This document shows positions 5,412 through 35,516 of a stretch of 64,000 bases of DNA, piece by piece. Each line of letters starts with the position of its first letter. The first letter of the stretch is position 1. Source of the stretch: Pseudomonas fulva 12-X (lineage in GTDB: Bacteria; Pseudomonadota; Gammaproteobacteria; Pseudomonadales; Pseudomonadaceae). The notes under the pieces are model-generated. The model searched no databases. It saw only the letters and a list, made by a program, of their open reading frames with translations, and was not told where the DNA came from. The stretch is taken from positions 2,542,001 to 2,606,000 of the forward strand of contig NC_015556.1 in assembly GCF_000213805.1 (NCBI RefSeq). The letters are read 5' to 3'. The position numbers were made by a program, and so were the translations under genes.

Positions 5412-6320
5412 TTACAGATGGAAATCCCCAGCCGCCTCCGGCTGGTAAAGCACCTTCCTGATCTCGATCTGCCGCGTGCGGCCTGCGATGCGCCAATCGA
5501 TGGCGTCTCCCTCCTGATAACCCAGAATGGCGGCGCCGAGGTCGGAGCACACTGAGTGTTTGCCCGCGCTGCTGTTGGCGTCTTCGGGGTAAACCACGGC
5601 CACTTCGATCTCTTCGTCGTCGACCTGCACCAGGGCTCTGGAGTTCATGGTGATCACAGTGCCCGGCACCTGATTCGGCTCGACGACGATGGCGCGTTCG
5701 AGCTCGTGTTCGAGCTGGACGACCGAGCCTTCCTCCAGCGCGATCAGGTTGTCGAGCTTGGCCTTGTCCATTTCGGTGATGTAGATCCCGGGTGCATCGC
5801 GAAAAGCGTCTTCACGGAGCAGCTGCAGATAACGCGCGGCGCTCATCGCCCATGACGTCATGGTCGACGTTTCGCTCTCCAGCTCGAAGCCACTGCGTTC
5901 AAAGGCCTTCTGCGAGCGCAGGTTTTCAGGATGAATACTGGCGATGAGTTTCTCGGCGCGCATGTCGAGAAAGGCCAATTTCATGCCTTCGCGGATGGTG
6001 CGAGTACCGAGGTTGCGGCCCCATTTTTCGCTGTCACCGATGGCTAGGACGATCTCGCATTCCTTGCCGGTCTTGATCAGGCGGACGAAGCCCACCGGCT
6101 CGTCGTACCGGTCATAGGCCATGAAGAAACGGCCATCGCGGTTGAACAAATGGGTCAGAATCGGCAGTTGAGTCCGCTCGATGGTGTGTTCGATGGTGCG
6201 GGAAACGTCACGCGAATCGCTTAGGTAGCAGGTAACGCGATCATCTTCCAGCCAGTCCATCAGCTTCAGCGCATGTGCCCGAGTAATTTCAGGGCACAGC
6301 GAAATGAAAGGCTTGTTCAT
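5412..6320 (-). CDS. Fusion of a GNAT acetyltransferase and an Rnk/GreA-GreB C-terminal-like domain
   Basis: 302-aa protein with two parts. Residues 1 to about 165 are a GNAT N-acetyltransferase domain (acetyl-CoA loop region KWGRNLGTRTIREGM and the beta-bulge motif HPENLRSQKAFERSGF). Residues from about 172 to 302 resemble Rnk, the regulator of nucleoside diphosphate kinase, with a short coiled coil (YITEMDKAKLDNLIAL) and the FKBP-like GreA/GreB C-terminal fold (TVITMNSRALVQVDDEE, GAAILGYQEGDAIDW). Rnk-type domains bind RNA polymerase, so the fusion could place an acetyltransferase there; that is inference. ATG at 6320 was chosen over a GTG nine bases upstream. Confidence 0.8.
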   Translation of the reverse strand: MNKPFISLCPEITRAHALKLMDWLEDDRVTCYLSDSRDVSRTIEHTIERTQLPILTHLFNRDGRFFMAYDRYDEPVGFVRLIKTGKECEIVLAIGDSEKWGRNLGTRTIREGMKLAFLDMRAEKLIASIHPENLRSQKAFERSGFELESETSTMTSWAMSAARYLQLLREDAFRDAPGIYITEMDKAKLDNLIALEEGSVVQLEHELERAIVVEPNQVPGTVITMNSRALVQVDDEEIEVAVVYPEDANSSAGKHSVCSDLGAAILGYQEGDAIDWRIAGRTRQIEIRKVLYQPEAAGDFHL

Positions 6321-6449
6321 CTTCACCACACAAATTTGAAGGATTTAAAGCCCTTCATGGCTATGGCCATGACGGTTCTTTCGGCAACCCGTTAGTTTAA
6401 AGCATCAGGCGTGTGATTCCGACCCTTCTGCGCGTTTGGCTTGGCTCGC

Positions 6450-7094
6450 TTATTGAGCGCCCTGCTCTGCCTCGACGCCCTCACCCGCCTTGAACAAGTG
6501 CTCGAAGCCGCGCAGCGTGCTATCCACGAAACGACTGTCGCTGGTGGAACTCGGCAGTTGCAGCACGCCGTGGATCACCAGTGAGGCCAGGCCGTGGGTG
6601 TAGGACCAGCCGGCCAGGGCGGCGCGGCGCACTTCCGGGCTATCGATGCGCTGATCGAGGATCTCGGCGATGATGCGTTTGAGTTCGCCGAAAGCCTCAT
6701 CGCGGGCTTCGCGGTATTCGGCCGGCATGTCCTCGCTGCCCAATTCAGGGCCGAACATCAGTTGATACAGCGCGGGATTGGCGCGGGCGAAGCTGAAATA
6801 GGCCAGGCTTGCGTCGCGCAGCTTGAGCAGGCCACTGCTGCCCTGCTCCGCCGTGCGCAGCGCAACCGCCAGCTCGCGAAAACCCTTGCCCGCCAGGTGG
6901 CCGATCAGTTCCGCGCGGTTGGCGTAGTGATGGTAAGCCGCCGTCGAGCTCACCCCAACGCGTTCGGACACCCCACGCAGGGATAACTTGGTTGGCCCGA
7001 CTTCCTCGAGCATCTCGCGCGCCGCGCTCAGCAGCTGAGGCGCCAGGTTGCCCACGTGATAGGTGTCGCGGGAACGCGAAGATCGCTTGCTCAT
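6450..7094 (-). CDS. TetR-family transcriptional repressor with WHG-type C-terminal domain
   Basis: 214-aa regulator with the TetR helix-turn-helix near residues 36-62 (LSLRGVSERVGVSSTAAYHHY) and a C-terminal ligand domain of the TetR_C_13/WHG kind (FARANPALYQLMFGPEL). It is divergent from the crotonase/flavoprotein operon. The 115-base intergenic region contains a perfect 9-base inverted repeat and a 15-base near-palindrome that recurs inside the operon, so it almost certainly represses both itself and those genes. TetR members beside crotonases often sense acyl-CoA thioesters; the ligand here is not known. Confidence 0.9.
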   Translation of the reverse strand: MSKRSSRSRDTYHVGNLAPQLLSAAREMLEEVGPTKLSLRGVSERVGVSSTAAYHHYANRAELIGHLAGKGFRELAVALRTAEQGSSGLLKLRDASLAYFSFARANPALYQLMFGPELGSEDMPAEYREARDEAFGELKRIIAEILDQRIDSPEVRRAALAGWSYTHGLASLVIHGVLQLPSSTSDSRFVDSTLRGFEHLFKAGEGVEAEQGAQ

Positions 7095-7130
7095 GGAAAG
7101 GCTCTGGCTGGGCGGACAGGAAAGGCTCGG

Positions 7131-7167
7131 ATCTTATCATTCATAAATATCTTGACGCTGATAAGAT
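7131..7167. promoter_or_regulatory. TetR operator region and overlapping promoter for the crotonase operon
   Basis: ATCTTATCA (7131-7139) and TGATAAGAT (7159-7167) form a perfect inverted repeat. Within it, CTTGACGCTGATAAG (7151-7165) matches 13 of 15 bases of a palindrome at 8067-8081. A promoter with -35 TTGACG (7152-7157), 18-base spacer and -10 TAGCAT (7176-7181) overlaps the site, so a bound repressor would block polymerase. Confidence 0.65.
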
Positions 7168-7209
7168 TGCAATCTTAGCATCGCTCAAATCGTCATCGAG
7201 AGGTGCACC

Positions 7210-8046
7210 ATGACCGCAACCTACGAATGTTTCGCCCTGAGTGTCGAAGCCGGTATCGCCCACCTGCAATTGAACCGCCCTGACAAGGCCAACAGCCTGA
7301 CTCGCGCCTTCTGGAGCGAGCTGCCGTCCGCGGTCGATGAGCTGAGCCGCTCTGGCCAGGTGCGCGCCATGGTGATTTCTGCCCAGGGCAAGGTGTTCTG
7401 TGGCGGCCTGGACATGCAGATGTTTTCCTCGGCCAAGGAGTTTCACGCCGCTAGCGCCCAGGAACGGGAGATGCTGCAGTTCAATCTGGAGCGCATGCAG
7501 GATGCGCTCAATGCCCTGGAGAAGGCCCGTTTCCCGGTGATCGCGGCGGTGCAAGGCACCTGTGTCGGCGCCGGTTTCGACCTGATCGCCGCCTGCGATT
7601 TCTGCTTCGCCAGTGACGGCGCGAAATTCCGAATTGAGGAAACCAATGTCGGCATGATGGCGGATCTTGGCGTGCTGCAGCGCCTGCCACGGCTGATTCC
7701 GGCCGGCGTAGCCCGCTACCTGGCGCTGACCGGCGACACGCTGAACGCCGCCGATGCCTACAGTATGGGCCTGCTCGCCAAGCTGTTCGCCACGCCCGAA
7801 GAACTTATCGACGGTGCATTCGCCGCCGCCCGGCGGATTGCCGAGCGCCCCCCCATCGCCATCAACGGCATCAAGCGCGCGATGCTGTACAGCCGTGATC
7901 ACGGTGTTTACGAGTCCCTGCAACACACGGTGCTGCTGCAAAGCGCGATCCTCAGTGGTCAGGACATTCTGCGCTCGGTGCAGGCACGGGCAAGCGGCGC
8001 GTCAGCGGAATTTGCCGATCTGCTCGAATTGCCAAAGACCTTCTAA
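7210..8046 (+). CDS. Crotonase-family protein, dienoyl-CoA isomerase-like
   Basis: 278-aa enoyl-CoA hydratase/isomerase-fold enzyme. The oxyanion-hole segments are AQGKVFCGGLDM (near 59-70) and VQGTCVGAGFDLIAACDF (near 114-131). The run IEETNVGMMADLGVLQRLPRL (near 140-160) carries the Glu and Asp positions typical of delta3,5-delta2,4-dienoyl-CoA isomerase (ECH1) rather than the two Glu of ordinary hydratases. It probably moves or hydrates double bonds in an acyl-CoA. A good RBS (GAGAGG) precedes the ATG. It is the first gene of the TetR-controlled operon, 48 bases ahead of the CrtI-like flavoprotein. Confidence 0.88.
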   Translation: MTATYECFALSVEAGIAHLQLNRPDKANSLTRAFWSELPSAVDELSRSGQVRAMVISAQGKVFCGGLDMQMFSSAKEFHAASAQEREMLQFNLERMQDALNALEKARFPVIAAVQGTCVGAGFDLIAACDFCFASDGAKFRIEETNVGMMADLGVLQRLPRLIPAGVARYLALTGDTLNAADAYSMGLLAKLFATPEELIDGAFAAARRIAERPPIAINGIKRAMLYSRDHGVYESLQHTVLLQSAILSGQDILRSVQARASGASAEFADLLELPKTF

Positions 8047-8066
8047 CGCATTCTTTTTAACCAAAT

Positions 8067-8081
8067 CTTATCGCTGATAAG
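8067..8081. promoter_or_regulatory. Second TetR-type operator inside the operon
   Basis: CTTATCGCTGATAAG is a perfect palindrome (CTTATC-GCT-GATAAG) and matches the site at 7151-7165 at 13 of 15 positions. It lies between the crotonase stop and the flavoprotein RBS, so it may control an internal promoter. Confidence 0.6.
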
Positions 8082-8094
8082 TTTGAGGTGAGTG

Positions 8095-9624
8095 ATGAAG
8101 CATTACGACGCCGTGGTCATCGGCGCCGGCAACGCCGGGCTGACCGCTGCCACCGCTTTGCAGCGCGGTGGCAGCCGCACGCTGTTGGTCGAGCGCCACA
8201 ACATTCCGGGCGGCTGCGCGACCTCCTTCGTACGTGGCAACTTCGAGTTCGAGGTTGCGCTGCATCAGCTCAGCGGCCTGGGCACCGAAGACAAACCCTT
8301 CGTGATGCGCAAGTTCTTCGCCAATCTGGGTGTGCTCGACAAGGTGCACTTCATTCAGGAACACGCACTGTATCGGCTGGTGGTGCCGGGCGAGCTGGAC
8401 GTCACCCTGCCCGCCAGTTGGTCAGGGATCCGCCGTCTGCTGCAGGAGCTGTACCCGGCCGAAAGCGACGCCATCGAGCGCTTCATGCTGGTGTGCGAAA
8501 AGGTCAGCCTGGAAAGCTTCATGACCCTGCCCCAGGCGCGCCGCGCCAACAGCGAGGCGGCGCTCACCTCGATGTGCCCCTACTTCGTGAAGTACGGCTT
8601 TCGCCCGGCGCGTGAGGTGCTGGACGAATTCTTCAGCGACGCCAAACTCAAGCACGTGCTCGCCACCTACTGGCTCTATCTAGGCGTGGCGCCAAGCATG
8701 TTGCCGTTTTCCGACCTGGCGGTGATGCTCTACGCCTATGCGGTGTTCAAGCCCTGGCATATCAAGGGCGGCTCACAGGCGATGTCCAGCGCGCTGGTCG
8801 AGTCGTTTATCGAAGCCGGCGGCGAGGTGCGCTTCAACTGCGCCGTGCAGAAGATCCATACCCGCGACGGCCGGGTCAGCGCCGTCAGCCTGGAAGGCGG
8901 CGAAACCGTGAGCTGCTCGGCAGTGGTTTCCAATGCCAGCCCGCTGATCACCTTCAACGAGCTGCTCGACCTGGAGCAGCCGCCGCTGCCGATCCGTGAG
9001 GATTTCAAATCGCGGCGCATGGGCACCTCGGCGTTCGTCATCTACCTCGGTCTGGACTGCACGCCCCAGGAGCTGGGCGTCACCACGGCGTCGAGCTTTA
9101 TCTACGAAACGCCCGACGAGGAGCAGATCCACGCGCGCATGGGCAGCCTTGAACCGCCGCTGGGCGGCATGCTGACCTGCTACAACCTGGAAGACCCGAG
9201 CGCTGCGCCACCGGGCAAGAGCCAGGTGGTACTGGTGTGTCTGCAGTACGGCGACGTGTGGAAGTCGGTGAAACCCGAGGACTACGCGCAGACCAAATAT
9301 GCCTTCGCCGAGAAGCTCATCGCGCTGATCGAGAAGGTCTACCCCAAGGTGCGCCAGTACATCGAGGAAGTCGAAGTGGCCACGCCGCTGACCATGATGC
9401 GCTACCTCAACACCCCGGGCGGCGCCATCTACGGTTTCCAGCAGAGCGCCCAGGATTCCAGCCTGCTGCGCGAGCGCCTGGACGCGGTGCCCGGCCTCTA
9501 TACCGCCGGTTCCTGGACGACCATGGGCGGTTTCCAAACGACCTACATGGCCGGCGAGTCCACGGCCAGGGCCGTGCTCAAGCAATTGAAAGCCCACAAG
9601 GCAGACGAGGTGGCACATGTCTGA
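8095..9624 (+). CDS. CrtI/retinol-saturase-like FAD-dependent oxidoreductase
   Basis: 509-aa flavoprotein with the N-terminal dinucleotide motif GAGNAG (10-15), the following VERHNIPGGCATSF segment, and a C-terminal FAD-binding stretch (LYTAGSWTTMGGFQTTYMAGES). The fold is the phytoene-desaturase/all-trans-retinol-saturase superfamily, whose members add or remove hydrogen at C=C bonds in lipids. Low resemblance to the CrtI at 39205 argues against a role in the carotenoid pathway itself. It overlaps the next gene by 8 bases, implying coupled translation with a dedicated reductase. ATG 8095 follows GAGGTG. Substrate unknown. Confidence 0.85.
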   Translation: MKHYDAVVIGAGNAGLTAATALQRGGSRTLLVERHNIPGGCATSFVRGNFEFEVALHQLSGLGTEDKPFVMRKFFANLGVLDKVHFIQEHALYRLVVPGELDVTLPASWSGIRRLLQELYPAESDAIERFMLVCEKVSLESFMTLPQARRANSEAALTSMCPYFVKYGFRPAREVLDEFFSDAKLKHVLATYWLYLGVAPSMLPFSDLAVMLYAYAVFKPWHIKGGSQAMSSALVESFIEAGGEVRFNCAVQKIHTRDGRVSAVSLEGGETVSCSAVVSNASPLITFNELLDLEQPPLPIREDFKSRRMGTSAFVIYLGLDCTPQELGVTTASSFIYETPDEEQIHARMGSLEPPLGGMLTCYNLEDPSAAPPGKSQVVLVCLQYGDVWKSVKPEDYAQTKYAFAEKLIALIEKVYPKVRQYIEEVEVATPLTMMRYLNTPGGAIYGFQQSAQDSSLLRERLDAVPGLYTAGSWTTMGGFQTTYMAGESTARAVLKQLKAHKADEVAHV

Positions 9625-10780
9625 GCACAACGCTCTGAATCTGATCGCCGGCTACTCGGCCGCAGTGGCCGCCAAGCAGGCGCTGGAACGCAGTGGCAGC
9701 GATTTTCAGGAAGTGCGCGGCGAAGTGGGTAACGCCGTGGTGCAGCTGCATCCCAAGCGCCTGGCGCTGGAAGTGGCCGAAATCATCGAGGAAACGCCAA
9801 GCACCCGCACGCTGCGCCTGGTGGCGGTCGATCGTCAGCCGCTGCCACCGTTCCAGGCCGGCCAGTACGTCAACCTGTTCGTCGACATCGACGGCGTGCG
9901 CACGGCCCGGCCCTACGCCATGTCGTCTTCGCCGCTGCAGCGCCTGCACTACGACCTGACCGTCAAGCGCGCCGAGGGCGGTTTCGTCTCCGGTTACCTG
10001 CTCGATCAGGTGATGGTCGGCCAACGCCTGAGCAGCTCAGGGCCGATGGGCACCTTCCATCACAACCCACTGTTTCATGGCGATGATCTGGTGTTTCTCG
10101 CCGGCGGCTCGGGTTCGGCGCCGGCGCGCAGCATGCTGCTGAACATCCTTGAACGCGGCCTGGCGCAGCGCTTTCACATGGTCTACGTGAACAGCCACAC
10201 CGATGACGTGATCTACGCCGAGCAGCTGCGCGAATTGGCGGCGCAGCACCACAACTTCACCCTGAGTGAACTCATCACCCGACCGCCTGCAGGCTACAGC
10301 GGGCGCCGCGGCCGGCTGAACCGCGAGCTGCTCGCTGAGCTTCTGGGCGTGCCCGACGGCAAGATGTTCTACATCTGCGGGCCGACGCCCTTCAACGACA
10401 GCTGCGTGGCGCTGCTCGATGAGCTGGGCGTGCCGCGTCGGCGCATGCGTGTGGAAGCCAACGGCGCGCCCAAGTGGCCGAACGCCCAGGCCGGCTGGCC
10501 TGAATGGGTGGCCATGGACGACGAAGTGCAGATCACCGTGCAGGGCCGCGGCAGCTTTCGCAGCCGGGTCGGCGAGCCGCTGCTCAACGCACTGGAACGC
10601 AACGGCTACTTCGTCGAGAACGCCTGCCGCTCCGGCGAATGCAGCCTGTGCCGGGTCAAGCTGGTGTCCGGCACGGTGTTCAACCCGCAGGAAGCGCACC
10701 TACGCGCCTCCGACCGCGACTTCGGCTGGATCTATTCCTGCGTGGCCTTCGCCACCAGCGATATAGAAGTGCTGCTTTAA
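9617..10780 (+). CDS. NAD(P)H-dependent flavin reductase with C-terminal 2Fe-2S ferredoxin domain
   Basis: 387-aa electron-transfer protein. After a roughly 45-residue N-terminal extension comes a ferredoxin-NADP reductase-type FAD/FMN domain (ARPYAMSSSP flavin-binding motif near 95-104, GPMGTFH) and an NAD(P) domain (FLAGGSGSAPARSM; MFYICGPTPF). The C-terminal plant-type ferredoxin domain carries cluster ligands Cys337, Cys342, Cys345 and Cys375 (CRSGECSLC ... C). This layout matches PaaE-like phthalate/phenylacetyl-type reductases. Overlapping the flavoprotein gene by 8 bases, it is the likely electron donor to it. Confidence 0.9.
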   Translation: MSEHNALNLIAGYSAAVAAKQALERSGSDFQEVRGEVGNAVVQLHPKRLALEVAEIIEETPSTRTLRLVAVDRQPLPPFQAGQYVNLFVDIDGVRTARPYAMSSSPLQRLHYDLTVKRAEGGFVSGYLLDQVMVGQRLSSSGPMGTFHHNPLFHGDDLVFLAGGSGSAPARSMLLNILERGLAQRFHMVYVNSHTDDVIYAEQLRELAAQHHNFTLSELITRPPAGYSGRRGRLNRELLAELLGVPDGKMFYICGPTPFNDSCVALLDELGVPRRRMRVEANGAPKWPNAQAGWPEWVAMDDEVQITVQGRGSFRSRVGEPLLNALERNGYFVENACRSGECSLCRVKLVSGTVFNPQEAHLRASDRDFGWIYSCVAFATSDIEVLL

Positions 10781-10829
10781 TGCCGCGCTCGTTAAGATGC
10801 GCGGCTGATAACCTTTACGAGCCTACTGA

Positions 10830-11936
10830 ATGACCATCGCGATGGCCGCGCTGTGCCTGTTTCTGGCCGGTTTTACCGCCTACTACCTGGCCGGCGCCGC
10901 ACGCCGGCCGCAGCTGATCTACCAGGCCAACGCCCATAACGCCGAGCTGCTTGCCAAGGTGCCGCGCCTGACCCAGCGTTTCTGGGTAACGCCCTGGCTG
11001 ATCAACGGACACCTGCAAATTTTCGTGGCCGGTATCCAGGAAGCGCTCTCCCCTCGTCTGGTCTACGACCAGGCCGAGACGCTGCGCATGAGCGATGGCG
11101 GCACCACGGCGCTGCACTGGTTGGGTGCCGACTTGCCGGCCCATACGCCGACCCTGGTAGTGCTGCACACCATCACCGGCTCGCCGCAAAGCATGCGGGT
11201 GTTCATGCGCGACATGCAGCGCCTCACCGGCTGGCGGATCGTGCTGTGCGAGCGCCGCGGCCATGGTCAATTGCCGCTGACCAGCCCACGTTTCAATACC
11301 ATGGGCGACACCGAAGATCTGCGCGAGCAGCTGGAACTGATCCGCGAGCGTTACCCGCACTCGCCGCTTTACGCAGCCGGCGTGTCGGCCGGCACCGGCC
11401 TTTTGGTGCGCTACCTTGGCGAGCAAGGCGAAGACACGCCGCTGCAAGGCGCCTTCGCCTATTGCCCCGGCTACGACATCCAGGTGGCCTTCGCCCGCTC
11501 GCGAGCACCCTACAGCCGGGTGATGGCGAGAAGACTGGTGCGCCAGTTCGTAACGCCGAACCGCGAAGCGCTTTCGACCTGGCCCAGCCTGGCGCAACTG
11601 GAGGGCGCACAAAGCCTGGACGAGTTTCACCAGCACCTCTACGAATGTGCCGGCTACGACAGCTGGCAGGCCTACCTGAACGCCTGCAACCCGGTCGCGC
11701 TGATGGACAGGATCAGCGTGCCGCTGCTGGTACTCAACGCCGAGGACGACCCGGTCTGCGTGGCTGACAACGTACGTGAACACCAGGACGCCATGGCGCG
11801 AATGCCGAAAACCCTGCTGGCCGTCACTTCCCGCGGCAGCCATTGCGCCTACCTGTCGGGGCTCACCGCCAGGCCCTGGGCCCATCATCTGGCGGCGGAA
11901 TTTCTACAGGCGGTGCAAACCCGCGCAGCTGAATGA
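10830..11936 (+). CDS. Alpha/beta hydrolase of the YheT/ABHD1-3 family
   Basis: 368-aa protein with an N-terminal hydrophobic segment (residues about 4-22) that could anchor it to the membrane. Family marks are PWLINGHLQ near 55-63, VLHTITGSPQS near 111-121, and the nucleophile elbow GVSAG with Ser186. The acid is in NAEDDPVC and the base in RGSHCAYL, so the triad is complete. ABHD1/3-type enzymes cleave lipid esters. It lies 49 bases after the reductase gene in the same direction and may be the last gene of the TetR-controlled operon, which would make a lipid-derived substrate plausible. Confidence 0.85.
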   Translation: MTIAMAALCLFLAGFTAYYLAGAARRPQLIYQANAHNAELLAKVPRLTQRFWVTPWLINGHLQIFVAGIQEALSPRLVYDQAETLRMSDGGTTALHWLGADLPAHTPTLVVLHTITGSPQSMRVFMRDMQRLTGWRIVLCERRGHGQLPLTSPRFNTMGDTEDLREQLELIRERYPHSPLYAAGVSAGTGLLVRYLGEQGEDTPLQGAFAYCPGYDIQVAFARSRAPYSRVMARRLVRQFVTPNREALSTWPSLAQLEGAQSLDEFHQHLYECAGYDSWQAYLNACNPVALMDRISVPLLVLNAEDDPVCVADNVREHQDAMARMPKTLLAVTSRGSHCAYLSGLTARPWAHHLAAEFLQAVQTRAAE

Positions 11937-14340: not shown

Positions 14341-14952
14341 CTAGCTGCCAACCAACTGGTCCAACCGCGCCTGCAACTCCGCGCGTCGAGTCGCATCGGC
14401 GGCCTCTTTGCTTTGCAGGCGCGCCAACAACTCGCCGGCCTGCTGAGGCGACAGCACGTAAATGCCATCGTCATCGGCGACCAGCAGATCACCGGGCTGC
14501 ACCCGCACGCCGCGTATCGTCACCGGAACGTTCACCGTGCCCTGCTCGCCAAGCGGGCGCGTGGTATAGGCGCTGACGCCGCTGCAGAAGATCGGCAAGC
14601 CGAGCGTTCGCAGCGCGCGCACGTCGGTCACCGGCCCGTCGATCACCACGCCGGTCAGGCCCTTGATGCGTGCAGCGATAGTTCGCAGCTCGCCCCAGCA
14701 GGCGCAATTAGCCTCGCCGCTGTTGGCGACAACCAGCACGTCGCCGGGCTGGCTGGCGATCAGCGCATCGCGCAGCACGCCGCCGTCCGGTGCGTGGATC
14801 TGCGCGGTGGTAACGCGGCCGACGATGTGCACATCGGCCACCAACGGCGGTAAGCCGTGGATGTGTCCTTCCTGCAGCACATGGCCGATGGTCGACGCGG
14901 CGATGCCGCGATAGGCGTCGATCAATGCAACGGGAACGGATTCGGTAGTCAT
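14341..14952 (-). CDS. RraA/HMG-aldolase-like protein, last gene of the achromobactin operon
   Basis: 203-aa member of the RraA/4-hydroxy-4-methyl-2-oxoglutarate aldolase fold (PGDVLVVANSGEANCACWGEL near 79-98; GVVIDGPVTDVRAL near 111-124; VQPGDLLVADDDGIYVLS). Aldolases of this family use a DGxxRD motif, but here the residue before the Asp is Thr (PVTD), so the usual catalytic Arg is missing. Its ATG overlaps the stop of the FhuF-like gene (ATGA), so it is translated as part of the siderophore operon. Its role is unknown; handling of an alpha-ketoglutarate-type intermediate or a non-enzymatic regulatory role are both possible. Confidence 0.75.
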   Translation of the reverse strand: MTTESVPVALIDAYRGIAASTIGHVLQEGHIHGLPPLVADVHIVGRVTTAQIHAPDGGVLRDALIASQPGDVLVVANSGEANCACWGELRTIAARIKGLTGVVIDGPVTDVRALRTLGLPIFCSGVSAYTTRPLGEQGTVNVPVTIRGVRVQPGDLLVADDDGIYVLSPQQAGELLARLQSKEAADATRRAELQARLDQLVGS

Positions 14953-15719
14953 CGCGGGGCCTTGGGTCGGATCAGTGGGCAGGTGGAGCAATATTCCACC
15001 GGGTCGCTGGCCTGGTAGTAGAAGCAGCAGGTGCGGCGGAACCGTACGGCGCGCGAGCCGTCATCGAGCAGGATCAGCGGTCGGTTGAAATGCTGCAGCG
15101 GGTTGTAATCGAGGCCGAACAGGCTGCCGGGAGCCTGCTCGGTCAGCCAGCGACAGTCTTCGGCGCAGCGCTGTCGCGTCGCGGCGCATTCGAGCTTGGC
15201 CAGGCGTCGCTCGTACAGCGAGTAGACGCGCACCGCGGTGTTCTCCCAGAGGATGCGCCGCGACACGCCGGTGAGCCGGTAGAAGCTCTCCCACAACGGC
15301 TGCAACAAGCCGGCGAACAGCTGGCCGGTCACCGCCTCGCGCCAGGCTTCGCGCGCGCCGGGTTCGGGCCGCGAGACGGCCAGGCTGCGCAGCGGCAGTG
15401 ACGAGGTCCACAGGCCGTCGTCGTGGCCGTACTCGATGAAGGTGTTGTCCAGCGACAGCTCCAGCCCCTTGTCGTAGGCGGACATGGCGTACAGGCAGGC
15501 GCCGGTGAGCAGGAACGACTGGCGCTTGCCCAGCAGCGAGGCGGTGATGCGCCGCGACGGCGAGAGAATCACCGGGCCGAGCCTGTCCAGCAGCGCCGTG
15601 CAGGTGGCTTCGTCGAGCAATTCCCTGGCCGGCAGGCTGCGTGCAAGGTCGCGCTCGCTTTCACGGCGCAGGCGCAGCGCGCCGCACAGGCTGGCCCATT
15701 CGGCGTCGCTGAAGCTCAT
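14949..15719 (-). CDS. FhuF-like siderophore-iron reductase
   Basis: 256-aa protein ending with a cysteine set CC-x11-C-x2-C ([17 protein letters not shown]), the hallmark of FhuF-type 2Fe-2S ferric-siderophore reductases. Such proteins act in the cytoplasm, reducing the imported ferric complex to release Fe(II). The ATG at 15719 overlaps the cbrD stop (ATGA), and the stop overlaps the RraA-like start, so it is part of the same transcript as the ferric-achromobactin importer. Longer reading upstream in this frame lies over cbrD and is not coding. Confidence 0.8.
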
Positions 15720-16507
15720 CGGGGAATGTCCCGACCGAAGGGAATGCACAGCGGCGTGTGGAAGAACGGGTCGGGGATGATCCGGCAATCCAGGTCGAAC
15801 ACCGTCTTGACCAGTTCTTCGCTGAGGATGTCCGCCGGCTTGCCCTGGGCGTAGGCGGTGCGCTGGTGCACGGCGACCATGTGGTCGGCGTAGCGACAGG
15901 CCAGGTTGAGGTCGTGCAGCACCATGACGATGGTCTTGCCCTCCTGGCGATTGAGTTCGCGCAGCAGATCCAGTACCTCGATCTGGTGGGCCAGGTCGAG
16001 AAAGGTGGTCGGCTCGTCGAGCAGCACCAACTCGGTCTCCTGGGCCAGGGTCATGGCGATCCAGGCGCGCTGCCGCTGACCGCCGGACAGCGCATCGACC
16101 GGCCGTTCGGCCAGCTCGTCGAGGCCGGTGCGGGTCAGTGCGCGGGCCACCACGGCTTCGTCCTCGGCCGACCACTGCTGCATCCAGCTCTGGTACGGGT
16201 AGCGCCCCAGGGCGACCAGCTGACGCACGCTGATGCCCTCGGGCGCTACCGGCATCTGCGGCAAGATCGCCAGCTCCCGCGCCACGGCGGCGGTCGGTTT
16301 GCGCTGGATGTCGGCGCCGTTGAGGATCACGGTGCCGGCCTGCGGCTTGAGCAGCCGGGCGAAGGATTTCAGCAGCGTGCTCTTGCCACAGCCGTTGCTG
16401 CCGATCAGCACCGTCACCTGGCCGCGCGGCAACGCCAGGTCGAGGTTGTCGATGATCGGCTGGCGCTGGTAGGCCAGGGTCAGGTTGCGGCTGGCGATGG
16501 CGGTCAT
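15716..16507 (-). CDS. cbrD: Ferric-achromobactin ABC transporter, ATP-binding protein
   Basis: 263-aa FecE/FhuC-type ATPase. Walker A is GSNGCGKST (36-44), the signature LSGGQRQR near 141-148, Walker [13 protein letters not shown], and the H-loop in MVLHDLNLA. It powers the CbrBC permease for siderophore import from the periplasm. It starts 11 bases after the cbrC stop. Naming follows the Dickeya achromobactin locus, where cbrABCD lies directly after acsA as here. Confidence 0.9.
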
Positions 16508-16518
16508 TTCAGGAGTCC

Positions 16519-17550
16519 TCACTGCCGCTGCTTGATCAGCAGGTACAGAAAATACGGGGTGCCGAACACGGCGACGAAAATGCCGGCGGGCAGGTCCAGC
16601 GGCAGGAACAGGGTGCGCCCGGCCAGGTCGGCAAGCATTACCAGATTGGCACCGACCAGCGCCGCCATGCAGGCCTGGGCGGCGAAACCGATGGGGATCA
16701 GCTGGCGAGCGATATGCGGCGCGATCAAGCCGACGAAGGCCATGGCGCCGCCCCAGGCGATGGCCGAGCCGGCCAGGGCCACGCTGACGGCAAGAAGCGC
16801 GGCGCGCAGCCACTGCACGCGCACGCCGATGCCGCGGGCCAGGCCCTCGTCCAGTTGCTGAACCACCACGTGGCGCGACAGCAGGGCCAGAACCGGCAGC
16901 AGGCACAGCAGCACGCCCGCCAGCGCCTTGACCTCTGGCCAGCCCGCGCCGTACACGCTGCCGGTCAGCCATACATAGGCCGACAAGGTGGTGCTCAGCG
17001 GGCTGAACACCAGCATGAAGGTGGTGGCCGCCGCCAGCATGGCCGACACACCGACGCCGATCAGCACCAGCCGCAGCGGTGACGTGCCCTGCTTCCAGGC
17101 CAGGCCGTAGACCGCCAGCGCGGCACTGCCGGCACCGAGCATCGCCGCCAGCGGCAAGCCGCCCATGCCCCAGGTCGCCGCGAAGGCCGACAGGTACAGC
17201 ACCGCCGCCGCACTGGCGCCGCTGGACAGGCCGAGCAGATCCGGCGAGGCCAGCGGATTGCGTACGATGGCCTGCAGGATCAGCCCGGACACCGCCAGGG
17301 CCCCGCCGATCAGCCCGCCGAGCAGCAGGCGCGGCAGGCGCAATTGCTCGACGATGAAGCTCAGCCCGGCCCCGCCCTCGCCCATCAGCACGGCAGCGAC
17401 TCGCTGCGGCGAGAGCATGACTTTGCCCAAGCACAGGCCGAGAACCAGCACGAAAAGGCTGAACAGCACGGCCAGCAGCAGGCGCAGCGCGCCGGTGCCT
17501 TCGATACGCCGAGAGAAACCGTGCCAGCGCAGGATGCGAGGTCTAGGCAT
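16519..17550 (-). CDS. cbrC: Ferric-achromobactin ABC transporter, permease
   Basis: 343-aa FecCD-family inner-membrane permease with about nine or ten transmembrane segments. Conserved segments include [35 protein letters not shown] and, late in the protein, [11 protein letters not shown]. It forms the channel with CbrB. ATG 17550 was chosen; it overlaps the cbrB stop by 8 bases. An upstream in-frame start at 17577 would lie further inside cbrB. Confidence 0.9.
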
Positions 17551-18532
17551 TGCGACCTCCACGGCGTGCCAGTGCAATGAAAAACGGCGCGCCGAACAGC
17601 GCGGTCATCACCCCGACCGGCACTTCCTGGGGCAGGATCACCACCCGGGCGAGCATGTCGGCGACCAGCAACAGCGTGGCGCCGAGCAGCGCGCAGCCAG
17701 GCAACATCACCCGATGGTCGATGCCGACCAGACGACGCACCATGTGCGGCACGATCAGACCGATGAAACCGATGCTGCCCGCCAGGGCCACTGCGCTGCC
17801 AGCCAGCATTACCACCAGCACGCCGAGTTGCAGGCGGATCAGGCCGGTGCGCTGCCCCAGGCCGATGGCGATCTGCACGCCGGCATTGAGCACGTTGACC
17901 TGGGCGCCGAGCAGGCAGGCCACCAGCAGCGCCACCAGCGCGCAGATCAGCAGCGGCACGGCGGTGGCCAGGCTGCGCTCGCTGAGCGAACCGGCCAGCC
18001 AGAACAGCACGGTATCCAACCCTTGTTGGTCGATCACCAGCAGCGCCTGGCTGAACGCCGTGAACAGTGCCGTGATCGCCGCCCCGGCAAGCACCATGCG
18101 CAACGGGTTGAGCGCGCCCTGCCCGCTGTTACCCACCGTCCAGACCAGCGCACCGGCCACGGCGGCACCGCAGAAGGCGCTCCACAACCATTGCTCAGGC
18201 GCATTCAGGGAGAACAGCGACAGGCTGACGATCAGCGCGAAGGTCGCCCCGGCGTTGATGCCGAACAACCCTGGCGAGGCCAGCGGGTTGCGGGTCATGG
18301 CCTGCATCAGCGCGCCGGCCACCGCCAGGCTGGCACCGACCACCACCGCCATCAGGGTGCGCGACAGCCGGGTGGTGTTGACCAGCAGGTGATCGACGTT
18401 CGAGGGATCCCCATGCAGCAAGGCGTTGAACACGGTGTGCGGGGCGATCCAGCTGGGGCCGGTGGACAGGCTCAGCACGCAACAAGCCAGCAGCACGAGC
18501 GAAGCGATGATCAGTTTGCTCCACGCTGTCAT
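17543..18532 (-). CDS. cbrB: Ferric-achromobactin ABC transporter, permease
   Basis: 329-aa FecCD-type permease paralogous to CbrC, with the matching motifs [35 protein letters not shown] and [13 protein letters not shown]. It partners CbrC in the membrane. The start codon overlaps the cbrA stop by 4 bases (ATGA). Confidence 0.9.
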
Positions 18533-19440
18533 GCCGCGGCGTCCTGCAGCAGGGTGCGTTCGATATCGTCGAGAACGCTATTGGCGCCGAGAATGCCGCC
18601 GGAAAATATCCAGGCCACGCCATCCACCCACCACACCTGCCCGGCTTTGGGCGCGCTCATGCGCTGCCACAGCGGGTGATGGGTAATCGCCTGGTAATGG
18701 CGCTGCACCGCCGGGCTGTCGGCACGGCCGAACACGAAGAACACGTCGGCGTCGGCCACCGGCAGGCTTTCGCGGCTACGCAGCTTGATGGACACCCCGG
18801 TGGCATCGCGGCTCTGGCGGTTCCACACGAAACCCAGCTCGGCCAGCACGCTGCCGGCGAAGCTGTCGGGCAGGTAGCTGCGCACGTGGTCTTCGCGTAC
18901 GTCCAGCACCGATACGCTGAGTGGCCAGCGCGCGCCGAACTTCGCGGCCAGGCGTGTGCGCAAGGCGCTGATGCGTGCATCCCAGCGTGCTTGCAAAGCC
19001 TGCGCTTCGACGTCGCGCGCCGTGGCGGCGCCCATCACGCGCAGGGTGTGGCGGAATTCGAATACCTCGTCGAGCATCACCACCGGGCACAGTTGTTCGA
19101 GCAGCCCCTTGACCCGCTCGTGGCGAAAGCGCGAGGCGACGATCAGGTCCGGGGTGAGCAAGGCGATGTCCTCCAGGCTCGGCTGGGTTTCCAGGCCGAC
19201 ATGGGGCACGCCTGCCAGCGCCGGGCGCAGGTAGCGATACATGGGCTTCTCGCTCCACGAATCGACCACGCCGGCCGGCCGAATGCCAAGCGCCACCGCA
19301 GTGTCGGTGGCGCCTTGAAACAAGGTGATGACGCGCTGCGGTGCAGGCCCGGCCTTGGCCAGGGGCATTGCACCGGCAGCGATAACGCCCAGGGAAAGGC
19401 GCATCAACGTGCGCCTGGACAACGATCCACTAGGTTGCAA
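18529..19440 (-). CDS. cbrA: Ferric-achromobactin periplasmic binding protein
   Basis: 303-aa class III solute-binding protein of the FecB/FhuD type. The N-terminus has a twin-arginine signal ([11 protein letters not shown], cleavage near AKA-GP), suggesting export after folding. The start of the mature protein ([17 protein letters not shown]) and the [10 protein letters not shown] segment are typical for siderophore-binding proteins. It delivers the ferric siderophore to CbrBC. It overlaps the acsA 3' end by 11 bases. Confidence 0.88.
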
Positions 19441-21301
19441 ACTCGATCCTTTGTAATGGATTGACGACTAGCCCCTTGCCGAACGGCATGCTGCCCGGCC
19501 CACCGGCCCGTTCGATCATCGGGCGTAGCAGGAGTTTCTGCGGCCAGGTATCGGACTCGAACAACTGGCCACGCAGCACGGCGCGAGCGTCGTCGTCGAA
19601 CGGCACAGCGGTGATCCGCTCGCTCAGGGCATCACGCAGCACCCGCCAGGCCTGCACGGCTGGTACGTCGTAAACGCGCTCCAGGGTATCGATGATACCG
19701 CGCAGGTTGACCTGAATGCCCAGAGTCTGCAGCCAGAACAGCAAGTCTTCGGGGCGCTCATGGTACAGCGTCTGGGCATGACCTTTCTTGATCCGGTACT
19801 GCGGGTCGAGCATTCCGTTGCGCTCCAGCCAGGGCACGTACAGGCGCAGTGAGTCGTGATCACGCAGCAACAGCCCGCTGACTTTGCCTGCGTCGTACAC
19901 CAGCACGGCGTTCTGACCGTGCACTTCGCCGAGCATGCCGAGGCGGAACATGCGCAGGTTGACCTCGAAGAACAGCGTGCACAGCTCGGCGAACAGCTGT
20001 AGCACCGAGGCCGGGCCGGCCCGCAGACCGCGCTGGCGTATGCAGTCGTCGAAGAAATGCCGGTCGCTGTCGGGCAATGGCGTGCCCAGCGCGGCCATGG
20101 GCAGCAGGCGCTTGGCGGGGTCTGCGAGCAGCGCCGGGGGGTAGCCACGAACCATGGCCGAGAGGTGGCGCGGCGCCTCGTCGAACAAGGTACCGCCGTC
20201 GGGCATATAGCCCCACCATTTGCTTTCATCGCAGATATGCAGGGCTTCGCGCAGCACCTCGTCACGCTCGCGCCCCTGACGCAGCAACGCCTCGCTCAGC
20301 CCGCCGTTGATCATCTTCACCGCCGGCAGGTAGCGGGAGGCGCCGAGGGAATACACCGCCATCGGCAGCTTGATGTGATCAGCCGGCGCCGCGGCGCAGG
20401 CCAGCGAACGCAGCGACGAGGTGGGATGGAAACGGCCTTCCTGGAAGCTCAAACGCCGGCACTCGCCACGCTCGAAGGCCGCGCCGAGCTGCGCCGGAAG
20501 CACCCGCTCCAGTTGCCAGGGGTGAACGGGCAAGGCGACGTGGCTATCGGCAATCCCCAGGGCGCGCATCTCGGCGTCGAGCTTCGCGTGCTGCTCAGGC
20601 TCGAGAATGAACTGGGCCGGCTGGCAGCGCGCCAGCGCCTCGATACCGGCACCGAAGGTCAGGCAGCTTTTGGCCACCGCGACCCAGTTGAGGGCCAGGG
20701 GCTGGTCGAACTCGGCCTGGTACTGGCGGTACTGCTCGTCATCCAGGCCCTGCTTGGCCTTGGCCAGGGGATGGAACGGCCGGTCGCGCAGCGAGCCCCA
20801 CTGTTCCATGGCCAGGAAGAACGCGGCGCCGTCCTTTTCCAGCAGGCCTTCGGTCGGCACCTGGTGGTCGAGGGACAGCGCGGTCTGCCCGACGCTGGTG
20901 CGCAGCACGTCCATGAACAGCTCGATGCCCTTGTCGTTGTCGACCGCATCGACTTTCACGCCTTTCAGGGCCAGGGCCATAAAGGCATCCGGGGTGAGTG
21001 GCCGGGTGCTCTGCCCCTGCACGTCCAGCACCGGGGTGCCGGGCACCTTTTCCCAGGCCTGGGTGATGCCCGCGCGCAGGGCGACCGCCAGGCCGCGTTG
21101 TTCGGCGGCGTCGTAGTGCCAGTGCCAGATCCTGTGCGGCACCTGCAGTTCAGCCAATGGCGAATCCGGGTGCGCAGCACACCAGGTCGCGGGCTCGACC
21201 AGATGGGCATCGAGGGGGCCGAAGAAATCTTCGGCCAGCAGGCAGTCGACCAGGTCCTGCATAACCAGGTCAGCGGCAATCGAGTGGTTGGTGTGAGTCA
21301 T
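19430..21301 (-). CDS. acsA: Achromobactin synthetase AcsA (NIS, IucA/IucC family)
   Basis: 623-aa NRPS-independent siderophore synthetase of the IucA/IucC family, which activates a carboxylate with ATP and condenses it with an amine or alcohol. Visible family motifs are VHPWQLERV in the N-terminal half, HPTSSLRSLA in the nucleotide-binding loop, and GEVHGQNAVLVYDAGKV with LLRDHDSLRLY in the C-terminal FhuF-like domain. In the published pathway AcsA acts last, completing achromobactin. ATG 21301 was preferred over an upstream in-frame codon at 21376 that lies within acsB. Only 4 bases separate it from acsB. Confidence 0.9.
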   Translation of the reverse strand: MTHTNHSIAADLVMQDLVDCLLAEDFFGPLDAHLVEPATWCAAHPDSPLAELQVPHRIWHWHYDAAEQRGLAVALRAGITQAWEKVPGTPVLDVQGQSTRPLTPDAFMALALKGVKVDAVDNDKGIELFMDVLRTSVGQTALSLDHQVPTEGLLEKDGAAFFLAMEQWGSLRDRPFHPLAKAKQGLDDEQYRQYQAEFDQPLALNWVAVAKSCLTFGAGIEALARCQPAQFILEPEQHAKLDAEMRALGIADSHVALPVHPWQLERVLPAQLGAAFERGECRRLSFQEGRFHPTSSLRSLACAAAPADHIKLPMAVYSLGASRYLPAVKMINGGLSEALLRQGRERDEVLREALHICDESKWWGYMPDGGTLFDEAPRHLSAMVRGYPPALLADPAKRLLPMAALGTPLPDSDRHFFDDCIRQRGLRAGPASVLQLFAELCTLFFEVNLRMFRLGMLGEVHGQNAVLVYDAGKVSGLLLRDHDSLRLYVPWLERNGMLDPQYRIKKGHAQTLYHERPEDLLFWLQTLGIQVNLRGIIDTLERVYDVPAVQAWRVLRDALSERITAVPFDDDARAVLRGQLFESDTWPQKLLLRPMIERAGGPGSMPFGKGLVVNPLQRIEFAT

Positions 21302-21305
21302 GGAA

Positions 21306-22079
21306 TCAGTTTCCTCGCGTCGAGGTGGTGGCCAGCTTGGCCTGGAGAGCGCGAAACGCGATGCCGCGTTCGTCACCCAGCACGAAAGTGTTGACGCCGC
21401 GTTCGAGCCACCGCAGGTGGTCGTCGGGCTGGCGTGGAATGGCGCAGTACGGGATGCCGGCTGCCTGGGCGGCGCGCCAGGTGTCGAGCAGCGCTTGCTG
21501 CACCGTCGGCTGGTCGATCCGCCACGGCGTGCCGAACGACTGGGACAGGTCGGCAGCGCCTTCGAGGATCATGTCCAGCCCCGGCACGGCTGCCAGCTCC
21601 GCGGCGCGGCGCACACCCTCGACGCTTTCGACCATGGCCACGACCATGATCTGCGCGTTGGCCTCGGTAACGTACTCGGCCAGGCTGGCCTTGCCGAAGG
21701 CGCCGGGGCGACCGGCATTCAGGCTGCGCTCACCCAGCGGGTGATACTTGCAGGCGCGGATCGCCGCACTCAGCTTCTCGGGGCGCTCGACCTGCGGCAG
21801 GACGATGCCCTGGGCGCCGCCATCGAGCAGGCGCAGCATGCGCTTGGGCGCGAAGTCCGGCACTCGCACCAGGGGTGTGAGCGCATAGCTCTCGGCAGTG
21901 CGGATCATGTGCTCGACGGTTTCCGGGTTGATCAGCACGTGCTCCATGTCGATGATCACGAAGTCGTAGCCGGCTTCGGCAATCAGCTCGATGGACGCCG
22001 CCGACGGAATCGAGGCGATCAACCCGCGCACCGCCTCGCCGGCAGCCAATTGCTGCTTGAGTCGGTTGGTTCTCAGCAT
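21306..22079 (-). CDS. acsB: Achromobactin biosynthesis aldolase-like protein AcsB
   Basis: 257-aa HpcH/HpaI-type class II aldolase homologue. The active-site segments are present: the IIDMEH segment (catalytic His region), RVPDFAPKRMLRLLDGGAQG, the metal-ligand Glu in MVESVEGV and the Asp in GAADLSQSFG. In Dickeya the same gene sits between acsC and acsA; its exact step is not settled to my knowledge. A role in supplying or modifying the alpha-ketoglutarate-derived moiety is inference. Overlaps acsC by 7 bases. Confidence 0.85.
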   Translation of the reverse strand: MLRTNRLKQQLAAGEAVRGLIASIPSAASIELIAEAGYDFVIIDMEHVLINPETVEHMIRTAESYALTPLVRVPDFAPKRMLRLLDGGAQGIVLPQVERPEKLSAAIRACKYHPLGERSLNAGRPGAFGKASLAEYVTEANAQIMVVAMVESVEGVRRAAELAAVPGLDMILEGAADLSQSFGTPWRIDQPTVQQALLDTWRAAQAAGIPYCAIPRQPDDHLRWLERGVNTFVLGDERGIAFRALQAKLATTSTRGN

Positions 22080-23938
22080 GGGCGCGGTCCGTGGCGGTGC
22101 ATGGGATTGGCTACGTGCTTGAAGCGCCGCTCGCCGTCACCCAGCAGCCGGCGCTTGGCCAGTTCCTCCACCTCGTATTCGGCGGCGAACACGTCGAAGG
22201 CTTCAAAGCGCGCTGCGTGCTGCGGGTGCTCGCGCTGATAGTCGAGCACCACGTCTGCGGTCATGTGCCAGAACTCGCCCTCGTCCAGGCCATAGTGCTG
22301 ACGCAGGAAGATCGCCATCTCGGCCAGGCAGATGAAGAAGAACGCGTCACAGGAGAAGTCACGCACCGCGTTCAGGTCATCGGTGAGGATGAACGAGTTG
22401 CGGTTCAACTTGGCGTGGCTCGCCGGCAGCGGCACCAACTCGGGCGCCAATTCCGGACGAGCCAGGTGCGCCGGCGAGTACCGCACGCCGTCGTGGAAGT
22501 CCTTGAGGGCGATACGCTCGGGCCAGCCGTCGCGGTGGATCAGCACGATGTTCTGCCCGTGGGATTCCATGCCGATGCCCTCGGCATACAGCATGTGCAC
22601 GATGGGCGCCACGCTGACGCGCAGCAGTTGCTGCACCCAGGCATGCAGGCCGTACTGCGCGATCCAGGCATCGATGAACGGGCGCTGCTCGCCCTCGCCA
22701 TAGCGGTTCTCGACATGGCTCAGGCCGTTGAACGGCACGCCCTGCTCGCCCGGCTTCAGGTAGCGGTTGAGGTTTTCCCGCCAGATCGCGCCCAGGGTGC
22801 CGTAAGTCTGGCTCTGGCGGATGGCGGGCAACTGGGCGTAGTCGAAGCTGACCCCGGCCACTTCGCCAAGAACCACGAAACCGAGCTTCTGGGCGGTGGC
22901 GTCACTGGCGATCAGCCGTTGCAACCAGTCATTGATGATCGGCCCATTGAGCACCGTGTGCCGTGCCAGGATGCGCGTGCTCGATGTGTTGGTCATGCTC
23001 AGGGCGAGCTTCACGTAGGGCCGGTTGGGCTGCTCGACGTTGGCCAGGGTGCGAATCGACTGCTGGGGGCGGTAATCCGGGCCGGACGTGCCCAGGTACA
23101 GCAGCTCGCCGCGGGCCAGCTCGGCTTGGAAGTTCGGCACGATGACCTGCTCCCACTGCCAGGGGTGCACGGGAATCGGCCAGTAGTCGGCTAGCGTGCG
23201 GCCCTGCTCGGCCAGTGCCCGGTCGATCTCGGCCCAGCGCCCGGCGCCGAACTCATCCTCGAGAAAGCGCTGCAGGTCGATGCCTTGCGACTGGTTCACC
23301 GAGCCCAGCCTGCGGGCGATGCCCAGCCAGACCACCGCCAGCGGCTGGCCGAATTCCGGGCCATAACGACGGTTGTCGTCCAAGGAAAAGCCGATGCGCG
23401 ACTTGTAGCACGGGTGGTAGCTGTGGGCATCCATGAAGTGCCGCTCCAGGCTGTCGGCATCCAGGGTGTGTGGCGCCGCAGCGGGGCTGTAGTCCTGGCT
23501 GCGCGACTGCAGGTCCTTGAGCAGCGTCTGCTCCAGTTCCTGGATGAAGCGCGGCATGTGCGGGCCATCGGCCAGCTCGCCGAGCAGCTCGGCGATGGCC
23601 TGGTGCAGATCCGGCTGAGTGGCCTGGCCCTGGGCGTCGATACGCTGCAGGGTGGCCGAGTCGAGGCGGATGATGGCGAAGCTGTCGCTGAGCAGGCCCT
23701 GGCAGCGGTACTCGACCGCTGCGCCCTGCTCGTCAGTGCCGGCGACGATAAAGCGTTGGCGACCGTCGCCCAGGGGTTCCTGGCGATAGCTCAGCACATC
23801 CTCGTAAAGCAGGGTTTGCAGCAGTTGCCCGACCACCCGTTGCGACACCTGGCGGTAGCGCTGCGGGTTGGCCGGGGTCAGCCACGCATGGGCATGGGCG
23901 ATCAGTTCGGGCGCACGAAGGGGAGAAAACGAAGACAT
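22073..23938 (-). CDS. acsC: Achromobactin synthetase AcsC (NIS, IucA/IucC family)
   Basis: 621-aa IucA/IucC-family synthetase. Motifs are IPVHPWQWEQV, PQQSIRTLANV and MESHGQNIVLIHRDG with LKDFHDGVRY. In the published scheme AcsC condenses the citryl-ethanolamine intermediate with diaminobutyrate. ATG 23938 is preferred because GAGGTG lies at proper spacing; an ATG at 23953 overlaps the yhcA stop and would add five residues. It follows yhcA in the operon. Confidence 0.9.
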   Translation of the reverse strand: MSSFSPLRAPELIAHAHAWLTPANPQRYRQVSQRVVGQLLQTLLYEDVLSYRQEPLGDGRQRFIVAGTDEQGAAVEYRCQGLLSDSFAIIRLDSATLQRIDAQGQATQPDLHQAIAELLGELADGPHMPRFIQELEQTLLKDLQSRSQDYSPAAAPHTLDADSLERHFMDAHSYHPCYKSRIGFSLDDNRRYGPEFGQPLAVVWLGIARRLGSVNQSQGIDLQRFLEDEFGAGRWAEIDRALAEQGRTLADYWPIPVHPWQWEQVIVPNFQAELARGELLYLGTSGPDYRPQQSIRTLANVEQPNRPYVKLALSMTNTSSTRILARHTVLNGPIINDWLQRLIASDATAQKLGFVVLGEVAGVSFDYAQLPAIRQSQTYGTLGAIWRENLNRYLKPGEQGVPFNGLSHVENRYGEGEQRPFIDAWIAQYGLHAWVQQLLRVSVAPIVHMLYAEGIGMESHGQNIVLIHRDGWPERIALKDFHDGVRYSPAHLARPELAPELVPLPASHAKLNRNSFILTDDLNAVRDFSCDAFFFICLAEMAIFLRQHYGLDEGEFWHMTADVVLDYQREHPQHAARFEAFDVFAAEYEVEELAKRRLLGDGERRFKHVANPMHRHGPRPC

Positions 23939-23949
23939 TGATAGACACC

Positions 23950-29782: not shown

Positions 29783-29944
29783 GGTGCTCGCCTCTATCTG
29801 TTCGAGGCTCCGGATGGAGCCGTTGAAAGTCGTCAGCACTGCACTCATCAGTAAGGCGGTCAGTAACGGCAGGTCATGCCGAATGCGGGGCTGCCTTCTA
29901 CGAGGCGTCCCGCTTCATCCCTGAATGCTTGGTTTTATTGTGTT

Positions 29945-29974
29945 CAGCGAACGCCCGTTACCAGGCGTTCGCTG
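29945..29974 (-). terminator. Hairpin after the TonB receptor gene
   Basis: CAGCGAACGCC pairs with GGCGTTCGCTG around an 8-base loop, 18 bases past the receptor stop in its reading direction. No clean T tract follows, so it may attenuate rather than end transcription into acsF. Confidence 0.5.
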
Positions 29975-29991
29975 TGGGGTGCAACGGAAAA

Positions 29992-32418: not shown

Positions 32419-32483
32419 GGCAGACGCTCTCTTTTTAATTCACTACTTCCCATGACAGGTGAGTGAGAAAAAAGGGACAGCCT

Positions 32484-33934: not shown

Positions 33935-33962
33935 GCAAGTACCCGTTACGAAGATCAATAAC

Positions 33963-35489: not shown

Positions 35490-35516
35490 CGTTCACTCTC
35501 TTCTTCTATATGCCTG

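Follow-up and report, generated by a model that had tools for sequence, protein, structure and literature searches.

A stretch of 64,000 nucleotides from Pseudomonas fulva 12-X (the window, bases 2,542,001-2,606,000 of a single 4.92 Mb contig) encodes a flavoprotein of the CrtI/CrtISO superfamily, hereafter CRT, and directly downstream of it a reductase with a [2Fe-2S] domain, hereafter RED. Comparison with related loci indicates that the two apparently form an obligate pair and can be regarded as one two-component enzyme system. As to its reaction, we tentatively favour an ene-reductase or isomerase that would be fed by NAD(P)H and act on unsaturated acyl chains ahead of beta-oxidation. The genes of the locus are as follows.

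6450-7094, minus strand: TetR-family regulator, divergent from the operon; Pfam PF00440 and PF13305 (TetR_N and TetR_C_33) above cut-off.
7210-8046, plus strand: ECH, a crotonase homologous to Delta3,5-Delta2,4-dienoyl-coenzyme A (CoA) isomerase; Pfam ECH_1, closest PDB structures, acidic triad.
8095-9624, plus strand: CRT, flavin adenine dinucleotide (FAD) flavoprotein; Pfam Amino_oxidase and NAD_binding_8, conserved His57, alternative GTG at 8092.
9617-10780, plus strand: RED, FAD/NAD(P) reductase with a C-terminal plant-type [2Fe-2S] domain; PF00970, PF00175 and PF00111 (FAD_binding_6, NAD_binding_1 and Fer2).
10830-11936, plus strand: ABH, YheT/ABHD-like alpha/beta hydrolase; PF12146 (Hydrolase_4) and PF00561, hydrophobic N-terminus by eye.

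All five genes scored as coding, by a codon score trained on four of them plus one other gene. An earlier, sequence-only reading of this DNA had placed the genes correctly and had described an operon of four genes. The CRT-RED core of that operon is firm; the core is narrower than four genes, and the link with the hydrolase is weak elsewhere.

CRT and RED in other genomes

One scan of named genomes retrieved 481 relatives of CRT, and we analysed the loci of the best 80 of them (given L numbers below). Genes were called with a home-made open reading frame caller. Later calls missed the crotonase and the TetR gene of L035, and some antisense clusters in the gene listings were shadow frames that we disregarded. 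The closest named relatives are from Stutzerimonas and Pseudomonas, in a listing from which records of the genome itself were possibly excluded.

RED is the next called gene downstream of CRT on the same strand in 80 of the 80 loci, from Proteobacteria to actinomycetes (a coarser first inspection had placed it beside CRT in 79 of 80). The called gap between them is smaller than 250 bp in 78 loci, the exceptions being L073 and L099, and in the window the two genes share 8 nt (9617-9624). Among 398 genomes of the genus, CRT was present in 8 (E <= 1e-120) and RED in the same 8 (E <= 1e-80). The pairwise distances of the two proteins are correlated (0.97 over 81 rows, 0.94 over the 42 nearest rows, which are mostly gammaproteobacterial), a value to which the kinship of the hosts contributes. 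We regard CRT and RED as one enzyme system because of this constant adjacency, co-occurrence and correlation of distances. The flavoprotein-reductase pair that the sequence-only reading had suggested is therefore real. RED has the domain set of reductases that use NAD(P)H to supply a partner with electrons, and its plant-ferredoxin cysteines (337, 342, 345 and 375) are kept in at least 95% of 81 sequences.

A class-wide sample of 369 genomes had CRT in a single one, that of the strain itself (E 1e-120); the gene is hence rare and patchy. Carriage on plasmids was considered and rejected, since there were only five plasmid records, with 26-30% identity, which belong to another subfamily. When the tree of CRT was inferred, the tool warned of long branches meeting in its actinobacterial and deltaproteobacterial part.

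Relation of CRT to carotenoid enzymes

CRT has the fold of the CrtI/CrtD superfamily along its full length and is 18-21% identical to CrtI/CrtD structures (PDB 4dgk and 4rep). It lies below the curated cut-off of crtI_fam (163.2 versus 238.1 bits; the genome's own CrtI has 752.4) and below that of CrtISO, the carotenoid isomerase model that is its second-best NCBIfam match (139.8 versus 586.9 bits). A role of CRT in carotenoid biosynthesis was rejected because it fails both cut-offs and a full-scoring CrtI sits in a separate cluster, ~23 kb away. CRT is the single gene of its kind at its locus; elsewhere in the genome crtI_fam has one full-length match, the carotenoid CrtI.

The carotenoid-like cluster of the window (34602-41690, and 41572-42108 on the minus strand) reads as crtE, idi, crtX, crtY, crtI, crtB and perhaps crtZ; its CrtI (39205-40695) is above the crtI_fam cut-off, with 752 bits. 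A third reason against a carotenoid role of CRT is that the genes called in the 80 loci include, besides CRT itself, no homologue of the window's crtI, crtB, crtY or crtX. Two crtE-like genes of 34-36% identity, ~2.2 kb upstream in L038 and L039, could be ordinary prenyl synthases. The database names of CRT relatives include 'phytoene desaturase family protein' and 'prolycopene isomerase', and these two carotenoid names are probably wrong for this subfamily.

The N-terminal region of CRT has a conserved histidine, His57, five residues after a phenylalanine. CRT differs here from the window's CrtI, which has no histidine at that place. The homologues L005 and L006, both of the same genus, and L007, of the same order, share the register of this histidine; we take these homologues to be RetSat-like.

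The crotonase

The sequence-only reading had called the first gene of the operon a crotonase. This can be sharpened: ECH is, by its PDB matches and its acidic triad, a homologue of Delta3,5-Delta2,4-dienoyl-CoA isomerase. Its residues 10-261 align with structures of this enzyme, which are its best matches (2vre, 8sk6 and 1dci, with 183-184 bits; the next is EchA21, with 154). The Asp-Glu-Asp triad, equivalent to the catalytic Asp176, Glu196 and Asp204 of the rat isomerase, is kept by ECH, by 10 of the 10 related loci that were aligned and by another copy in the same genome. ECH keeps the acidic triad of the known isomerase but is a diverged copy. The other copy (read at L116:4664-5485, 36% identical) looks like the housekeeping one, and the ECH of the operon may be read as a second, specialised one.

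ECH occurs in 5 of the 398 genus genomes (E 1e-100), all of which encode CRT and have ECH adjoining it. Its presence on the CRT tree requires at least four gains or losses (12 labelled rows), so its association with the pair has arisen or ended repeatedly. There are 10 crotonase-like places in the 4.9 Mb genome, and on this count adjacency to CRT by chance seems unlikely.

Neighbouring genes in related loci

Within the contiguous gene cluster on the strand of CRT we counted beta-oxidation-type genes (acyl-CoA ligase, FadH, crotonase or acyl-CoA dehydrogenase), dropping L052 (a 24% ligase-like match) and adding L035. At least one is present in 18 of the 80 loci. Crotonases are encoded in L027, L028, L029, L031, L032, L035, L042, L044, L046, L047 and L062. 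Acyl-CoA ligases are found in L027, L028, L029, L031, L032 and L044, with more distant ones (27-34%) in L071, L072 and L076; that of L028 has its best matches among models of long-chain fatty acid ligases, below their cut-offs. Acyl-CoA dehydrogenases occur in L056, L081 and L082, with a fragment in L101, and the proteins of L081 and L056 match this family. FadH or a FadH/OYE-type protein is encoded in L056 and L076, and another 303 bp upstream of CRT in L071. The FadH of L076 matches 2,4-dienoyl-CoA reductase (PDB 1ps9) with 943.5 bits over residues 4-669, and the protein of L056 is more distant, of the OYE type. L071, which is titled a metagenome-assembled genome of Curvibacter, has PadR, a mycothiol-type domain and a FadD11-like ligase, and its terminal branch in the tree measures 1.23. 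The contig may come from an actinobacterium and be misbinned, and therefore its FadH (71% identical to that of L076) is no evidence of transfer between phyla.

Within the genus, FadH was found in 16 of 16 genomes tested (65-67% identical), 8 with CRT and 8 without. This rules out CRT as a replacement for FadH, and CRT therefore presumably does something that FadH does not.

In L028, L029 and L031, RED and the hydrolase are separated by the acyl-CoA ligase gene. The window has a 49 bp gap at this place, hence the strain lacks an acyl-CoA ligase at the locus; elsewhere its genome has two ligases 43-44% identical to the ligase of the related loci. The hydrolase, which follows contiguously after this gap, is near CRT in 4 of the 80 loci (L027, L028, L029 and L031) and is on the opposite strand in L027. 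This weakens the earlier suggestion that the hydrolase releases the substrate. ABH scores 88.9 bits on the YheT-type model NF008218, under its cut-off of 267, and its GxSxG, Asp and His motifs are conserved in 5 of 5 sequences; no solved relative was found by sequence at E 0.001. Its distribution suggests a weak, lineage-local member of the operon, and probably a late addition.

Actinomycete loci have other neighbours. A SnoaL/NTF2-like gene is in the CRT cluster of 25 of the 80 loci (within L072-L106, actinomycetes), and in L076, L081 and L083 it lies directly before CRT, overlapping it by a few bases. PadR flanks the cluster in 21 of 80.

Operators and the TetR regulator

Three candidate sites, to which no strand is assigned, were found in the window.

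7133-7147: operator-like site with 2 mismatches, in the gap between the TetR gene and the crotonase.
7151-7165: operator O1, CTTGACGCTGATAAG, with 2 mismatches, in the same gap; overlaps a sigma-70-like -35 element, TTGACG, at 7152.
8067-8081: operator O2, the perfect palindrome CTTATCGCTGATAAG, ending 13 bp before the CRT start codon.

We searched for the palindrome CTTATCnnnGATAAG, allowing up to 2 mismatches, within 70 bp upstream of CRT in 73 loci (7 of the 80 had too little sequence or an unclear start). It occurs in 17 of the 73, whereas 200 dinucleotide shuffles gave 0.095 on average and never more than 2. Eight of the 17 sites are perfect, and 15 lie at 27-29 bp before the CRT start; two are from Shimia (alphaproteobacteria), at 37 bp. 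The conserved position across loci takes the operators beyond chance expectation. In 36 of the 80 loci the CRT-RED cluster has a TetR relative directly beside it, and the regulator of the window would bind these putative sites. The recurrence of the palindrome supports the TetR control through shared operators that had been proposed from the sequence.

O1-type sites are also present in L029, L032, L037 and L059. In the window, L029 and L032 the crotonase lies between two sites spaced 915-916 bp. Three loci that lack the crotonase, L059, L037 and L039, have two sites 71, 107 and 131 bp apart, the first of L039 reading CTTAAC; the other crotonase-less loci, and L028 and L031, have one site only within 2 mismatches. 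Because crotonase-less relatives keep two sites close together, CRT-RED seems to have its own operator, with the crotonase inserted between two sites or lost from between them.

A wider TetR regulon was considered and set aside. With up to 1 mismatch the whole genome has two such sites, O2 and one inside an unrelated gene read as haem oxygenase, so that the regulon looks local at this threshold, the only one sought genome-wide. The promoter scan gave 2 sites where 0.9 were expected, and the -35 match at O1 is no better than chance; the promoter match is for this reason weak, and none is established.

The reaction of CRT-RED

In the reaction that we favour, NAD(P)H would be the electron donor, and RED would relay its electrons via FAD and the [2Fe-2S] centre to the FAD of CRT. 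The target of CRT would be a C=C bond in an unsaturated fatty acyl chain, probably a polyunsaturated or conjugated one; reduction or a shift of this bond, the most likely outcomes, would open the chain to beta-oxidation. In the lineage of P. fulva the crotonase would convert 3,5-dienoyl-CoA to 2,4-dienoyl-CoA, which the ordinary FadH of the genome could then reduce. TetR would keep the operon repressed through O1 and O2 in the absence of an unsaturated acyl ligand. The sequences themselves show the constant pair, the identity of the isomerase homologue, the operators, the presence of FadH and, in a minority of loci, lipid-catabolic neighbours; we infer the substrate, the direction of electron flow, the binding of this TetR to the sites and its ligand.

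The dedicated NAD(P)H-type reductase suggests that electrons go into CRT. The argument is not decisive, since in Castellaniella defragrans CtmE and CtmF accompany an oxidative enzyme (PMC4109377). In this system, one of the closest known, the limonene dehydrogenase CtmAB, a flavoprotein of the phytoene-dehydrogenase type (COG1233), is encoded together with a 2Fe-2S ferredoxin and an NADH:ferredoxin oxidoreductase, and the ctm genome island also holds 2,4-dienoyl-CoA reductase genes (PMC4109377). By its description, CtmAB differs from CRT-RED in having two flavoprotein subunits, a separate ferredoxin and reductase, and an oxidative action on monoterpenes (PMC4109377). A 2Fe-2S ferredoxin domain and a reductase domain are likewise present here, fused in RED, which adjoins CRT in all 80 loci. 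CtmABEF is a precedent for such a flavoprotein with a ferredoxin chain; the exact reaction of CRT-RED was not found described. A literature search of titles and abstract openings, which covered few subscription journals, yielded no paper on this gene set; the statement of the sequence-only reading that it matches no characterised pathway stands within this coverage.

Several observations weigh against the reading that we favour. The lipid context proposed earlier is seen in the 18 loci whose beta-oxidation-type neighbours point to the catabolism of unsaturated fatty acids, but 62 of the 80 have no such gene in the contiguous cluster, and many marine loci consist of CRT, RED and TetR only. The frequent SnoaL-like and PadR neighbours in actinomycetes give no pointer to fatty acids. 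The palindrome was not found in 56 of the 73 loci, including most of the marine ones with a TetR of ~30% identity. Finally, CtmABEF and the sterol Delta24-desaturase Delta24-SD oxidise their substrates (PMC4109377, PMC11061730), and UfaD is a desaturase (PMC7380195).

These enzymes suggest an alternative in which CRT is an allylic dehydrogenase or hydroxylase, similar to limonene dehydrogenase or to a sterol Delta24-desaturase, and electrons leave through RED to NAD(P)+ or another acceptor. We consider this rather unlikely, though the association of the CtmAB flavoproteins with ferredoxin and oxidoreductase genes speaks for it. Delta24-SD of Sterolibacterium denitrificans, a putative NAD(P)/FAD-dependent oxidoreductase related to CtmAB, also acts beside a C=C bond, and it binds flavin at a consensus histidine in an N-terminal motif (PMC11061730); this motif can be registered with the conserved His57 of CRT. 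It differs from CRT in its proposed alpha4beta4 architecture, covalent flavin mononucleotide and desaturation (PMC11061730). CtmAB and Delta24-SD are heteromers of two flavoproteins, whereas the locus has one. In addition, CRT (E-F-E-V-A-L-H-Q) fits the flavinylation consensus G-F-L/R-X-N/S-T/L-H-A in register only at F, L and H. NAD+ is not a positive-potential acceptor. CtmAB requires such an acceptor (PMC12583861).

A redox-neutral cis-trans or positional isomerisation by CRT, dependent on reduced flavin supplied by RED, is less probable again. The carotenoid isomerase CrtISO is such an enzyme, redox-neutral and dependent on reduced flavin, and its model is the second-best NCBIfam match of CRT. 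A reduced-flavin enzyme would need a dedicated reductase, and the dienoyl-CoA isomerase downstream in the route would fit the production of conjugated dienes. Yet the score of 139.8 bits is far under the cut-off, and nothing here separates an isomerase from a true reductase.

The substrate might also be a polyene or isoprenoid acid (an apocarotenoid, a terpene or a sterol side chain) degraded through CoA esters, which we hold to be more improbable still. The superfamily acts on polyenes and terpenes, and upstream genes of some deltaproteobacterial loci can be read as CoA-transferase, thiolase-like, MaoC and SDR (one of them tested with Pfam). Against this, the ligase of L028 best fits long-chain fatty acid models, albeit under their cut-offs, the crotonase matches a fatty-acid dienoyl-CoA isomerase, and the carotenoid cluster of the genome is a separate locus.

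A role in membrane-lipid biosynthesis, in which CRT would modify phospholipid acyl chains like UfaD of Rhodobacter sphaeroides, is very improbable: by its description UfaD is a flavoprotein resembling phytoene dehydrogenases and desaturases that acts on a fatty acyl chain, but it is a desaturase of furan fatty acid synthesis for which the available text describes no dedicated reductase partner (PMC7380195), and the partners of CRT are catabolic (ligase, dienoyl-CoA isomerase, FadH and acyl-CoA dehydrogenase).

The reading of CRT-RED as an NAD(P)H-fed enzyme of unsaturated acyl chains can be extended, at a clear cost in likelihood, to a broader proposal. CRT-RED might be a widespread, patchy two-component saturase (biohydrogenase) with which bacteria use NAD(P)H to reduce polyunsaturated or conjugated long-chain fatty acids and, as part of this same rather doubtful claim, the reductive counterpart within the superfamily of carotenoid desaturases, limonene dehydrogenase and retinol saturase. 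Retinol saturase belongs to the superfamily of CRT.

Other features of the window

A gene at 5412-6329 (minus strand) encodes GNAT acetyltransferase, Rnk_N and GreA/GreB C-terminal domains in one protein (Pfam), an unusual fusion of an acetyltransferase with a module of the RNA-polymerase-binding type. A long run of genes at ~14949-33958 (minus strand) is a predicted cluster of siderophore synthesis, uptake and sigma/anti-sigma regulation. At 42346-43203 and 62317-63153 (minus strand), ~20 kb apart, are two genes that begin very similarly and read as GalU-like UTP-glucose-1-phosphate uridylyltransferases.

Significance

Relatives of CRT number in the hundreds across sequenced genomes (481 from a single scan). 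If the pair does act on unsaturated acyl chains, it would add an enzyme step to the ways in which bacteria use or detoxify polyunsaturated fats, and the names of its relatives could be corrected across many genomes. The tightness of the pair, its small size and its defined putative operator make it a directly testable system.

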